From Alphaproteobacteria bacterium (GTDB lineage Bacteria; Pseudomonadota; Alphaproteobacteria; Rhodobacterales; Rhodobacteraceae), in the NCBI GenBank assembly GCA_016869835.1, contig VGDH01000008.1:1-47234 (forward strand): DNA of 47,234 nucleotides, given 5' to 3'. This document shows, piece by piece, positions 14,897 to 44,321 of this stretch. The number at the start of each line of letters is the position of its first letter. The first letter of the stretch is position 1. Made by a program: the position numbers and the translations under genes. The notes beneath the pieces are model-generated. The model was not told where the DNA came from, ran no database searches, and saw only the letters and a list, made by a program, of their open reading frames with translations.

Positions 14897-15669
14897 TTAA
14901 CCGTCCCAGCCAATGGCCCGGCGGTAAAGATGCCAGGTCGCATGGCCAAACACCGGCAGGACGACAAAAAGCCCCGCAAAGCCCGGTAGCATAGCCAGAA
15001 ACAGGCTGGTCCCAATCAGCGCGCCCCAGCTCAGCATGACCACCGGGCTTGCCGCTACGACGCCGAATAATGTCAGCATTGCCGTCACGAAATCCACCTC
15101 GCGGTCTAGAAGCATCGGCAGGCTGACCACTGTCAGCGCAAACAGGAGCGTGGCAAAAACCGCCCCCACCACACTGCCCACCGCCAGCATCGCAAGCCCC
15201 GGCGGGCTGAGAAAAATGTCAATCGAGGTGGTGATGTTGGTCAGCGTGGCCTTGCCCAGAAAGAGCGCAAAGATCATGTGGGCCAGAAAGTTCCAGAACA
15301 GGAAGAACACCACGATCACCGCCGCCATCGACGGGATCTGGCGGTCCTTCTGGCGGAAGATGACGCCAAGGATCTCGCCCCAGACCAGCGCCCCCCCTGC
15401 TCGCGCCGTCGAGACACCGCATAAAGCCCGCAAGCGATGAAGGGCCCCAGAATAGGAAAGCCTGCCCCTGCAGGCAGCGTCAACCACAGCTGACCCTTGG
15501 CGGTGATCGACCACAGGATCAGCCAACCGCCAAGGACATAGATAGCAGCGAAAAACAACCCGTAAAGCGGCGCACTGCGGAAGTCTTGCCAGCCCGCCCC
15601 AAGGGCATGGCGCAGGTCTGACAGTTCCACCTGCAAGATCTCGGGGCGATCGGGGCTCGTCGCTTTCAT
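14897..15669 (-). pseudogene. DUF2189 family membrane protein, frameshifted
   Basis: The two halves of a DUF2189 integral membrane protein lie in different frames. The first half starts at an ATG at 15669 (after GGGAGAG) and runs through VELSDLRHALGAGWQDFRSA and helices to the sequence YAVSRRREQGG. The second half resumes as ALVWGEILGVIFRQKD and continues with four more helices to the TAA at 14897. The break is at a run of seven G on the minus strand (15391-15397); one extra G, or two fewer, restores a protein of about 257 residues with six predicted helices. The cause may be sequencing or assembly error, a recent mutation, or phase variation. Function of the family is unknown. Convergent with the bactofilin gene. 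Confidence 0.85.
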
Positions 15670-38084: not shown

Positions 38085-39473
38085 TTACTCTTCGTCCTCG
38101 CCATTGCCGCCCTTATGCCCGCCAACAACGCCAAGCGACTTCAGCTTGCGGTGCAGCGCGCTGCGCTCCATACCCACAAAGCCTGCAGTCCGGCTGATAT
38201 TGCCGCCAAAACGGTTGATCTGGGTGATAAGATATTCGCGTTCAAACACCTCACGGGCCTCGCGCAGCGGCAGCGTCGCCATGGCGCCGCCCAGAACCAT
38301 GCGCCCGCCGGTGTCGGGGCTGGGCTCTTGCCCCGGAAGCTCGCGCGTCTCAATGGGGCCGGTGCCATCGCCCAGAATCAGGACCCGTTCGATCACGTTG
38401 CGCAGTTGGCGCACATTGCCGGGCCATTGCATGGTTTGCAGCATCGCCTCCGCCTCGGGCGTCAATTCGCGCTGCGGGAGACCCTGTGAGCGGTGGAAAA
38501 GATCAATGAAGTGCCGGGTCAACTCGGGGATGTCCTCGCGCCGGTCCTCAAGGCTTGGCACGGCGATCGGCACGACGTTCAGCCGGTCAAACAGCTCTTG
38601 GCGAAAGCGCCCCGCCCCGATCTCGCGCCGCAGATCGCGGGTGGTTGACGAAATCACCCGCAGATCGACGCGCACCTTGTCATTGCCACCCACGCGGGTG
38701 AACTGCTGTTCGGTCAGCACACGCAAGATCTTTGACTGGGTGCCAATGGGCATGTCTGCCACCTCGTCAAAATAGACCACCCCGCCATGCGCCTGCTCCA
38801 GAAGGCCCTTTTCCACCCCGCGGTCGGATGTCTCGCGGCCAAACAGCACCTCTTCCATCCGCTCCGGCTCGATCGTCGCAGAAGAGACCGAGACGAAGGC
38901 CGCCCCGGCGCGGTTGGAATGTTGGTGAATGAACCGCGCCGCCATTTCCTTGCCCGATCCGGCAGGCCCGGCCAGCATCACCCGACCGTTTGACTTGGTG
39001 ACCTTTTCCAGATTCGATTTCAACGTCTTGAAGGCCGAACTTGATCCAAGCATCTCGGTCGAGGTGACGTCGCGGCGGCGCAGGTCGGCGTTCTCGCGCC
39101 GCAGGCGCGAGGTTTCCATCGCCCGCGCCACCACCACCATCAGCTGGTCGATGTTGAAGGGCTTTTCGATGAAATCGTAAGCGCCCTGCTTGATCGCCGC
39201 TACGGCGATTTCGATATTGCCATGACCCGAGATGATAACGATCGGAATGTCGGGATTGTCGCGCTTGACGGTTTTGAGAATGTCGATCCCGTCCATCCGG
39301 CTGTCTTTCAGCCAGATATCCAGGATCATCAGCGCCGGCGGTTCGGCGTTGATCTCGGCCATGCACTCATCGGAATTCGAGGCGAGCCGCACCGAATAGC
39401 CCTCATCCTTCAGGATGTCGCCGATCAGCTCGCGGATGTCCTTTTCATCGTCGGTAATCAGAATACTGGTCAT
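38085..39473 (-). CDS. ntrX: Response regulator NtrX
   Basis: A 462-residue response regulator of the NtrC-like family: receiver domain (1-120) with phospho-acceptor D52 (MILDIWL), AAA+ domain (about 140-370) with Walker A GPAGSGKEMAAR and Walker B VVYFDEVADM, and a C-terminal Fis helix-turn-helix (GGNISRTAGFVGMERSALHR). The GAFTGA loop needed for sigma54 contact is absent; the segment reads EEVLFGRETSDRGVEKGLLE. Alphaproteobacterial NtrX is known to lack it and to act otherwise than by sigma54 activation. It overlaps the ntrY stop by four bases. Confidence 0.94.
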   Translation of the reverse strand: MTSILITDDEKDIRELIGDILKDEGYSVRLASNSDECMAEINAEPPALMILDIWLKDSRMDGIDILKTVKRDNPDIPIVIISGHGNIEIAVAAIKQGAYDFIEKPFNIDQLMVVVARAMETSRLRRENADLRRRDVTSTEMLGSSSAFKTLKSNLEKVTKSNGRVMLAGPAGSGKEMAARFIHQHSNRAGAAFVSVSSATIEPERMEEVLFGRETSDRGVEKGLLEQAHGGVVYFDEVADMPIGTQSKILRVLTEQQFTRVGGNDKVRVDLRVISSTTRDLRREIGAGRFRQELFDRLNVVPIAVPSLEDRREDIPELTRHFIDLFHRSQGLPQRELTPEAEAMLQTMQWPGNVRQLRNVIERVLILGDGTGPIETRELPGQEPSPDTGGRMVLGGAMATLPLREAREVFEREYLITQINRFGGNISRTAGFVGMERSALHRKLKSLGVVGGHKGGNGEDEE

Positions 39474-41743
39474 TTGTCCTCCTTGCCCGTCTGGGCCAGT
39501 CTGTTTGCCCTGCCGCCTGGGGTGCGGGGGGCGCGGGGCAGATGAATGACTGCCATCGCGCCCGCATGGGCGTTGCCGTCAAAGGGTGGCGCGTCTTGCA
39601 AGGCAAGCGTGCCGCCATGTTCCTCGATGATCTTCTTGACGATGGGCAGACCAAGGCCGGTGCCCTTTTCGCGCGTGGTCACATAGGGCTCGAACAGCCG
39701 CGCCCGGTCAGGGGGCAGGCCCGTGCCATTGTCCATTATGCGGATTTTGACCTGGGTTTCGTCGGCTGTCATCTCGACACGGATCTCGGGCCGATAGCTC
39801 TCGGGGGCGCCGCGTTCGATCAGGCCCTCGGTCGCCTCGCCCGCATTCTTGATGAGATTGGTCAGTGCCTGGCCAATCATGGTGCCGTCAAACTCCAGCA
39901 CGACCGGTGTTTTCGGCAGCGCCGAGACAAAGCGCACGCCGGGCTGACCGTTTTCTTGCAACATGACGGCAGCGCGCACCAGCTCAACCAGATCACCCTC
40001 GCGCCGATCCGGTTCGGGCATGCGGGCGAACTTCGAGAACTCATCGACAATCCGGCGCAGGTCATTGGTCTGGCGCACGATCACATCGGTATATTGTTCA
40101 AGATCTTCAGGCTCTTGCACCTGGGTGCGGAACTTGCGCTTGATTCGTTCGGCCGAAAGCTGGATCGGCGTCAGTGGGTTCTTGATCTCATGCGCGATCC
40201 GGCGGGCGACATCGCCCCAGGCGGCCATACGCTGGGCCGAGACAAGCTCGGTCACATCGTCAAAGGCCACCACATACCCTTCAAGCCGCCCGCCTTCGGT
40301 GCTGCGGCGCGAAACGCGCACCAGAAGGCTTTCCAGCTTGCCCGCCCGCGTCAGCCGCACCTCTTCCTGCACCGCCGCTTGCCCGCTTTCACGCAACCGT
40401 TCCAGAAGCGGTGCAAACTCGGGCACGGCAAGGCCAAGCGGCACATCATGGGCGGTCATGCCTACATCCAAAAGCCGCTCGGCAGCACGGTTGACAAAAT
40501 CCACCCGGCCCTCGGGGTCAAGACCGATCACCCCGGCGGTGACGTTTGACAGAACCGAATCGAACAGACGCCTGCGCTGTTCGGTCTGGCGATGGCTGTC
40601 GAGAAGCGCATCGCGCTGCCCTTTCAGCTGCTGGGTCATCTGGTTGAACACGCGCCCCAGAGTAATGATCTCGTCGTCACCCTCTTCCTCGATGACCTGC
40701 ACATTTAGATCCCCCTCGCCCACACGGGCAGCCGCACTGGCCAGTCGGCCCACCGGGCGGCTGAGCTTTTCGGCAAACCACAGGCCAAGCCAGATGGCAG
40801 CCAGAACCAGAATCAGGGCGAAGCCCAGATACAAGAGGCCAAAGTTGAACAGCACCCGGCCGCGTTCGGCTTCAAGCTGTTGATACAGCGAGACAGTTTC
40901 TTTCGTGTCATCGAGCAGCGACAACAGCTGCCCGTCAACAGACCGGCTGATGTATAGATAGCGGTCAGGAAAGGACTCAAGACGGACAAGCACGCGGAAC
41001 TCGTTGTTGATCCAATCCTCGATCACCACGGTTTCACCGGCGGCCGCGCGCTGCAAGTCGTCGGGGCTTGGAGCTTCGAAATCAAAGAGATAACTGCGCT
41101 CACCCCGGGTTTTCAGGCTGCCCGCCCCGTCGATCAGATAGACCTCGCGCAGACCGCGCTGAATGGCCTGCTGACCCTGGCTCAAGACCTGACGGATCTG
41201 CCCGTCATCCATGAAGAACTGCGCCTGCCGGGTGACATTCAAGATCCCGGCAAAGGCGGCAGCATCCTCGGTCAAGGCATCGCGCTGTTCCTTTTCATAA
41301 GCCTCGGCGGCCGAAAGCGAGGCGCCGACAACATTGCGCACGCGTTCGGAAAACCACCCTTCAAGCCCGATGTTCAGGTTCAAGACGGCAAAGACCGCGA
41401 CCAGGATCGTTGGCACCAGCGCGATAAAGGCAAAGACCCCGGTCAGCCGCAAATGCAACCGCGACCCGGCCGATTGGCTGCGCCGGTCGGCGATCATGCG
41501 GATCACCCGGCTCAGGATCAGGGCCGCGACCAAAAGCACATAGACAAGATCGACAAGCAGGATCAGTCGCAACAGGCCCGAGCTTGCGCCCAGATCATAG
41601 GGACCCATGGCCAGGAAGGTGACAACCGCCAGAAGCGGGCCCAGAAACACCAGACCAAAGCTGAAGGCACCCTGCATCGCCCGCGCCCGGCGCAGGCGAG
41701 ACAACCTCACCCATGTCGCGCTGCGATAGGAACTTGACGCCAC
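39470..41743 (-). CDS. ntrY: Sensor histidine kinase NtrY
   Basis: A membrane sensor kinase of about 757 residues that phosphorylates NtrX, linked in the family to nitrogen and redox or oxygen sensing. It has three N-terminal helices, a periplasmic region, a fourth helix ([20 protein letters not shown]), HAMP, PAS, a HisKA with [20 protein letters not shown], and an HATPase domain ([32 protein letters not shown]). The start is uncertain: GTG at 41743 ([15 protein letters not shown] opening, GGGGG upstream) is preferred; GTG at 41821 gives a 783-residue product. The stop overlaps the ntrX ATG by four bases. Confidence 0.9.
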
Positions 41744-43202
41744 AACCACCCCCAAAAGCGGGCGGGCCGTGCCATTCCCGCCACAGACTTGTGTCCGTTC
41801 CGCCTCTGGCGAAGCGAACACATGCCTGTGGCTGATTTACATCAACTTGCGGCGGCGTGTCACGCGGATATCGAAGTTCGGTGATCTTTTTTCTCAAGGT
41901 ATTGCGGTTGATGCCCAGAAGATCGGCACATTTTGCCTGATTTCCCGCCGTGGCATCCAGCGCGATTTCAATGAGAGGGATCTCCATTTCGCGCAACACC
42001 CGGTCATAAACCCCCGGAGGCGGCAGTTGGCCGCCATGCAGATCGAAATAGCGCCGCAGGTGACGCGCGACCGATTGGGCAAGCTTTTCACCCTCCATCG
42101 CGCCGGGCGGCACGGCACTGGCCTGCACCTGGCCAAGCGCCGCCTCGATCTCGGCCCGCGCGATTTCAGGCTCGGACGAGGTGACCATCAACCGGCGCAG
42201 CGTGTTTTCCAGCTGCCGCACATTGCCCGGCCAGGGATGGGCGCGCACAAAGGCCTTGGCCTCGGCCGACAGCGCCCGTGCAGCACCGCCCATCTCGCGC
42301 TCGCCCCGCGCCAGCACATGTTCGGCCAGCAGGGGAATGTCATCCACGCGCTCACGCAGCGCGGGCACAGCCAACGTCACACCCGAGAGCCGGTAATAGA
42401 GATCCTTGCGGAAGCTGCCTGATTCAAGCCGCGCCGTCAGATCGGCCTGAGAGGTCGACATGATGCGCGGCCCCTGCTCGCCCATCACATCAAGCATCCG
42501 GACCAGCCGCGCCTGTGCATCGGCGTCAAAATCGGCAACCTCGTCCAGCACCAGCGAGCCGCCCTTGCTGCGCGCCAAAAGCGTCGAAATGCCCTCGACC
42601 CCGGCCAGATCGGCGGCCTGGGCGACCACAAAAGGCTGGGCGCGGCGGTCGGAAAAGTCATGAATGGCGCGGGCGATCAACGATTTTCCGGTGCCGGATT
42701 CGCCAGTAATCAAGACCGGCAGATCGGCATTCATCACCCTTGCCACCAGCCGGTAAAGTGCCTGCATAGCCGGCGTTCTGCCCACCAGCGGCAATTCCTC
42801 GACCACCGGGCGCGGCTCGGCCGGTTTGGGGGCGACGCGTTTTTGCTCCAGCGCCCGGGCCGAACGTTTCATGAGATCGGGCAGGTCAAAGGGTTTCGGC
42901 AGATAGTCAAAGGCCTCGGCCTCGGCGGCCTGAATGGCGGTCATGATGGTGTTCTGCGCCGAAATCACGATCACCGGTAGGCCGGGTCGCAGCCGGGCAA
43001 TCTGCGGCAGTGCCTGAAGCCCGTTGCCATCGGGCATGATCACATCGGAAATCACCAGATCGCCCTTGCCTTCCTCGACCCAGCGCATCAGCGTCATCAG
43101 CGATGAGGTCGCATGAACCTTGCAGCCCGCCCGCGTCAATGCCTGGGTGAGAACGGTGCGGATCGTGCGGTCATCATCGGCGACAAGAACGGTGCCATCC
43201 AT
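41595..43202 (-). CDS. ntrC: Nitrogen regulator NtrC, C-terminal tail out of frame
   Basis: A response regulator of nitrogen control. Receiver domain with D53, AAA+ domain with Walker A GESGTGKS (167-174), Walker [10 protein letters not shown] and RKDLYYRL, and a Fis-type helix-turn-helix ending [12 protein letters not shown] (443). The GAFTGA motif is missing, as in Rhodobacter capsulatus NtrC, which activates sigma70 rather than sigma54 promoters. After residue 443 the frame reads on for 92 residues of unlikely sequence. One extra base at 41873-41876 explains this: the shifted frame gives the normal tail [11 protein letters not shown] and a TAA at 41837, making 454 residues. The ATG is three bases after the ntrB stop. 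Confidence 0.9.
41837..41882 (-). other. Frameshift site at the ntrC 3' end
   Basis: On the minus strand the sequence GAACTTCGATATC holds one base too many between the codons for Glu-Leu and Asp-Ile. Removing it joins TEL to [11 protein letters not shown] and a TAA at 41837-41839. The intact-looking coding tail beyond the shift implies that the insertion is very recent or an assembly error. Confidence 0.75.
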
Positions 43203-43205
43203 CGC

Positions 43206-44321
43206 TTAGCCCTTTTTCAGATGTGCTTGGTCCGGTCGCCCGGCGTCTTTCGGCGCCACCGGCAAGGAGACGCGAAACACCGTGCGACCCGGTGCAGAGT
43301 CGACTGAAATCCAGCCGTCGTGGTCGGAAATGATCTTCGAAATAAGCGCAAGCCCGAGGCCGGTGCCGTTTTCACGCCCCGAGACAAAGGGTTCAAAGAT
43401 ATCGGCCGCAATATCGGGCGGAATGCCGGGGCCGTCATCCTGCACCTCGACTGTGAGGGGAAGGCGGGCAAAGCTGCCATCGCGCCGCTTCACCCGAAGC
43501 GACTGGTCATAAAAGGTGTGCAGCCGGATCGTGCCCGGCCCGCGCGCCGCCTCGGCGGCGTTCTTGATAAGGTTCATAAACACCTGCATCAGCTGATCGC
43601 TGTCGGCAAAGGTCGACGGCAGCGAGGGGTCGTAATCCTCGACAATCGACATATGCGCGGCGAAACCCACCATGGCCGAGCGGCGCGCCCGGTCCAGCGC
43701 GTCGTGCAGATTGACCGGGCGGCGGTCTGGCGCGCGCAGATTGCCGAATTGCTCGACCTGCTTCAAAAGCTTCACGATACGGCGGGTTTCGGCCACGATC
43801 AGATCGGTCAGCTCGCGGTCCTCGGGGCTGGCGTTCATCGAGATGAGCTGGGCTGCGCCCGAGATACCCGCCAGCGGGTTCTTGATCTCATGCGCCAGCA
43901 TCTCGGCCATGCCGATGGCCGACTTTGCCGCCGATTTCACCTGCATGCCGCGCCCGATCCTGTCGGCCAGATCGCGGGGCGAGATCAGCATCAAAAGGTA
44001 GTCGGCATTGTCATGCATCGGCGCTAGCTGGATGTTGCACTGCACCGGCGGGCGTTCACCCGTGGTCACATCGACGTCATTAATGAACAAGGCCGCATGG
44101 TTGGCCCGCGCCCGGTCCATCGCGCTGTCCATATCGGCATCAATCGCCAGACGGTCCAGCACCGGCTGGCCTTTCAGCAGTTTCAGCGAGGCGTTGAGGA
44201 AAATCTCGCCCGCCGGGTTCACCTCGGCGATCATCCCGGCACGGTCGATCAGCAGGGCCGGAACCGGAAGGCTCGCCCAAATGACGCCCGGAACCGGGTA
44301 TGGCGGGCGATAAGCGCTCAT
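43206..44321 (-). CDS. ntrB: Nitrogen regulation sensor kinase NtrB
   Basis: A 371-residue soluble PII-responsive histidine kinase/phosphatase that controls NtrC. It has an N-terminal PAS domain (about 10-115), a HisKA domain with H144 in [16 protein letters not shown], and an HATPase domain with N-box FMNLIKNAAEAARG, the G1 box VQDDGPGIPPD and GTGLGLALISKI. No transmembrane segment is seen. The ATG overlaps the dusB stop as ATGA, and ntrC begins three bases after its stop, so all three are one operon. Confidence 0.95.
   Translation of the reverse strand: MSAYRPPYPVPGVIWASLPVPALLIDRAGMIAEVNPAGEIFLNASLKLLKGQPVLDRLAIDADMDSAMDRARANHAALFINDVDVTTGERPPVQCNIQLAPMHDNADYLLMLISPRDLADRIGRGMQVKSAAKSAIGMAEMLAHEIKNPLAGISGAAQLISMNASPEDRELTDLIVAETRRIVKLLKQVEQFGNLRAPDRRPVNLHDALDRARRSAMVGFAAHMSIVEDYDPSLPSTFADSDQLMQVFMNLIKNAAEAARGPGTIRLHTFYDQSLRVKRRDGSFARLPLTVEVQDDGPGIPPDIAADIFEPFVSGRENGTGLGLALISKIISDHDGWISVDSAPGRTVFRVSLPVAPKDAGRPDQAHLKKG

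Follow-up and report, generated by a model that had tools for sequence, protein, structure and literature searches.

An extra base near the 3' end of ntrC in a draft Rhodobacter-family genome, probably an indel error

In the window (the whole stretch of 47,234 nt analysed here, taken from a draft Rhodobacter-family genome), ntrC has one extra base close to its 3' end, which is probably, at a rough probability of 0.7, an indel error of a fragmented draft assembly. We infer that the base is absent from the organism, and its real ntrC would then end like those of the relatives examined, with an 11-residue ending. Its product would be a typical NtrC of Rhodobacterales, with a response regulator domain, an AAA+ domain without the GAFTGA loop, a Fis-type helix-turn-helix, and a short basic tail. 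The finding bears mainly on annotation, since an entry taken straight from the assembly would give the ntrC product a false tail of 92 residues and a false overlap with ntrY.

Structure of the ntrC locus

The features discussed below are the following.

41595..43202, minus strand: ntrC as assembled, from the list of open reading frames; 535 aa including 92 out-of-frame residues
41873..41875, minus strand: extra base, either a C that follows CTT or a second T
41837..41872, minus strand: expected NtrC ending of 11 residues plus TAA, now out of frame and preserved at the DNA level
41598..41873, minus strand: 92-codon out-of-frame tail made by the extra base, without a Pfam match
41877..41996, minus strand: Fis-type helix-turn-helix HTH_8, residues 403-442, intact according to Pfam and to a model of a relative's domain
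39470..41743, minus strand: ntrY, a sensor kinase gene that probably starts with GTG at 41743; the ntrC frame of the assembly runs into it
43206..44321, minus strand: histidine kinase upstream of ntrC, putatively ntrB from its position and domains
15391..15397, minus strand: run of seven G at which a second one-base shift on the same contig breaks a DUF2189 gene (about 14903-15669)

The minus strand at 41886-41863 is GATCACCGAACTTCGATATCCGCG; the 3' region of the gene reads GAA CTT CGA TAT and then continues with unrelated residues. Residues 1-442 of the as-assembled protein form the NtrC body, L443 is common to both frames, and residues 444-535 lie in another frame. Both the reading of the sequence and the list of open reading frames thus agree with the preliminary description of this DNA, which had reported a one-base insertion throwing the end of ntrC out of frame and an unrelated tail of 92 residues. 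Dropping the C at 41873 gives CTT GAT, while dropping the T at 41874 or 41875 gives CTC GAT, and either deletion restores L and the 11-residue ending, with TAA at 41839-41837, where the description had placed it. Its range for the removable base (41873-41876) holds for the first three positions; removing 41876, however, gives F in place of the L of the relatives, and 41873-41875 is therefore the best location for the extra base. A compensating indel elsewhere was considered and found superfluous, since the frame is correct through GAA CTT. As for ntrY, a 10-residue sequence at the likely start GTG 41743 is shared with the related genome G002. The as-assembled ntrC frame ends at 41595 and therefore overlaps this likely start by about 149 nt, which confirms the overlap noticed earlier.

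Identity of the gene

According to Pfam, the protein contains Response_reg (5-113), Sigma54_activ_2 (140-282), AAA_lid_14 (283-363), and HTH_8 (403-442), i.e. a receiver, an AAA+ domain of the sigma-54-activator type, and HTH_8, in the order of NtrC. The best NCBIfam family by E-value is TIGR01818 (ntrC), but the score of 407.4 bits lies below the curated cutoff of 558.6, and the protein is therefore not an equivalog by that model. The lower score may be due to the missing GAFTGA loop, which is absent in the window's NtrC; of 109 loci (among the matches listed), a script recognised 105 full-length relatives, and none of these has the loop either. Judged from its sequence, the gene takes the name NtrC here from gene order and from likeness to Rhodobacterales NtrC, and apart from the tail it appears to be an ordinary Rhodobacterales NtrC gene without GAFTGA. 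One published study describes NtrC proteins of Rhodobacterales, among them that of R. capsulatus, as having no GAFTGA loop, and R. capsulatus NtrC is reported to work through sigma-70 (PMC10274813).

Comparison with relatives

Related loci were collected from two sources: a search of 61 genomes (match in 44, 30 loci given) and a species-level genome collection (best 80 of 573 matches). In total, 115 loci were entered and 111 with an ntrC match were counted; the 4 outside the count are the window itself (L001), a paralogue (L002), and two stretches without ntrC (L113 and L114). Some loci represent one place fetched repeatedly, which leaves 103 distinct sequences of 300 bases. All relative counts in this and the following sections refer to the matches listed.

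An in-frame NtrC ends at the expected place in 111 of the 111 counted loci (103 distinct), and the distance from RNTLRKK to the stop is always 22 residues. This 22-residue ending is identical in 65 of the 111 loci and varies by a few residues in the others. The comparison of NtrC C-termini proposed in the preliminary description thus returns the short tail throughout. The extra base is found in 0 of the 103 distinct loci. Regarding the tail DNA, the 36 bases 3' of the extra base were compared with six relatives only (L003, L004, L005, L034, L035, and L036) and show 3, 2, 3, 2, 3, and 1 differences, respectively, all of them synonymous in the expected frame. The shift is therefore a recent event, or is not present in the organism, or is still being decoded. 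Both the uniform in-frame ending and the small number of synonymous differences from each of the six relatives argue for an indel error.

The less likely alternative, a frameshift mutation that is real, private to the strain and recent, is consistent with the sequence as given, and a recent event would also leave the tail DNA undecayed. Against it stand the absence of the extra base from all distinct relatives and the strong conservation of the tail, which suggests selection against change. The site itself has no long homopolymer (TT at most) and is thus not a classic error context, which favours the mutation and counts against the indel error. Codon 442, directly 5' of the site, is GAA in the window vs GAC in the three nearest relatives, and this also seems to count against an error, though Glu occupies the codon in 16 of the 103 distinct relatives.

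Recoding and a genuine long tail

Programmed +1 recoding, in which ribosomes slip at CTT before the rare CGA and still make the normal tail, appears very unlikely. Release factor 2 offers a comparison, with a +1 slip at CTT TGA, and CTT-C-GAT is formally a +1 site; moreover, CGA is a rare codon, with a frequency of 1.7 per 1000 among 7460 codons, and the coding of the tail is preserved. The site is, however, conserved in 0 of the 103 distinct relatives, and in-frame CTT CGA occurs 8 times (7 besides ntrC) in 310 long ORFs of the same genome, which were chosen mechanically and need not all be genes. Even less credit is given to the combination of a real base and +1 slippage at CTT CGA with translation setting how much NtrC carries the normal tail relative to the long one.

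Least plausible of all is a long tail that truly codes, as an extension of ntrC or an overlap with ntrY. The frame is open for 92 codons in the window, and in 28 of the 103 distinct relatives the frame shifted back by one base stays open for at least 92 codons, though it is not the ntrC frame there; in 5 of the 103 it meets no stop before the end of the fetched locus. This openness is probably explained by chance and the spacing to ntrY. In the three nearest relatives, however, the would-be long frame stays open for only 24, 0, and 0 codons, all counted loci stop at the normal place, and the 92 out-of-frame residues match 0 Pfam families at an E-value of 0.01, so a genuine long tail was rejected. 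A few relatives, L036 among them, keep the frame shifted back by one base at the end of ntrC open over about 790 codons, which presumably reflects the length of the spacer; in L036 this frame enters ntrY in frame.

The ntrC-ntrY spacer

The spacer holds a strong hairpin at 41780-41832 on the minus strand, with a 70-nt minimum free energy of −38.7 kcal/mol and a z-score of −5.9 relative to mononucleotide shuffles. For 102 distinct relative spacers the median z-score is −1.97, with values below −2 in 49, and the motif GC[AC]ACA lies at most 14 nt from the ntrC stop in 95 of the 102. Two results speak against the hairpin: a consensus fold of the spacer built from 56 rows yields 0 pairs, and Rfam reports no match at gathering scores in the whole window. 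Below cutoff, Rfam gives two weak microRNA rows at 41600-41950. In one relative (L072:7363-7378) 13 extra bases resembling the last bases of the gene stand between the ntrC stop and the usual spacer motif, which looks like a duplication of the gene end.

Assembly quality and a second frame break

The genome consists of 217 contigs with 3,144,613 bases, 100% completeness, and 1.73% contamination, and this fragmentation also speaks for an indel error. A second one-base break is located in the DUF2189 membrane-protein gene, at the 7-G run 26 kb from the ntrC site. The gene is whole in G001 and G002 (2 of 3 genus relatives) and has no match in G003, a genome that is 81% complete. A second break on the same contig, in a gene intact in two relatives, supports the indel-error explanation for ntrC and weakens the case for a private mutation.

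In a frame-aware survey, 92 genes of G002 were compared with the window and five of twenty sampled stretches of the genome to which the window belongs (107,514 aligned nt). Among 32 raw frame changes the only clean breaks, judged by eye, are those in ntrC and DUF2189; the reverse survey (97 genes, 26 raw changes) recovers both among others. The count of clean breaks is a judgement by eye, with only some of the raw events, which include others in L118, L134, L117, and L119, checked singly. Most raw events were judged, likewise by eye, to lie either in stop-to-stop extensions ahead of the real start or in divergent stretches, as pairs that compensate each other. On separate checking the DUF2189 break was upheld, and the flagged end of ntrY proved naturally variable in the relatives inspected. 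An earlier, cruder comparison of 46 genes each way missed the ntrC break. The rate, two breaks per roughly 107 kb, is low, which counts against errors. Each of the two breaks could be a real mutation of recent date, and the poly-G break in DUF2189 could be true slippage.

Consequences if the mutation is real

A real frameshift would keep the receiver, the AAA+ domain, and the helix-turn-helix, replace the TRRRKLM tail with 92 other residues, and carry translation across the hairpin of the spacer as far as the beginning of ntrY. The DNA-binding region of a relative (74 residues, 37 sequences) was modelled with a mean pLDDT of 88.3, which drops to a mean of 62 over the last four residues; helices are predicted at 2-9, 19-38, 43-50, and 54-63, with none after residue 63. 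According to Pfam and this model, HTH_8 and the four predicted helices stop short of the site, and the extra base falls directly after the last helix. The preliminary description had suggested that a real mutation flanking the helix-turn-helix could weaken binding: the tail flanking it is indeed replaced, but HTH_8 (403-442) is wholly spared.

Within the tail, V, T, R, R, R, and L are invariant in 37 aligned relatives (the last residue is outside the aligned stretch), so the basic tail is probably useful, perhaps through contact with the DNA backbone. Because the mutation would replace this conserved tail and spare the helix-turn-helix, weaker DNA binding is possible. According to one study, Caulobacter NtrC loses its function when the helix-turn-helix is broken or deleted (PMC12421884). 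A real mutation would be a natural test of the role of the conserved TRRRKLM tail in Rhodobacterales NtrC, since the helix-turn-helix is left intact. In the literature searched, no report of such a tail or frameshift was found by title or abstract.

Comparison with known systems

Single-base indel errors occur in draft assemblies. The ntrC break resembles them in being isolated, private, and frame-breaking with intact coding downstream, and in having a second break on the same contig at a 7-G run; it differs in that no long homopolymer is present at the ntrC site. As for the protein, the NtrC of Rhodobacter capsulatus likewise has a receiver, an AAA+ domain without GAFTGA, and a Fis-type helix-turn-helix, and its gene adjoins a histidine kinase gene and ntrY. 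In comparison with such GAFTGA-less Rhodobacterales NtrC, the window's NtrC differs solely by the extra base and the resulting tail.
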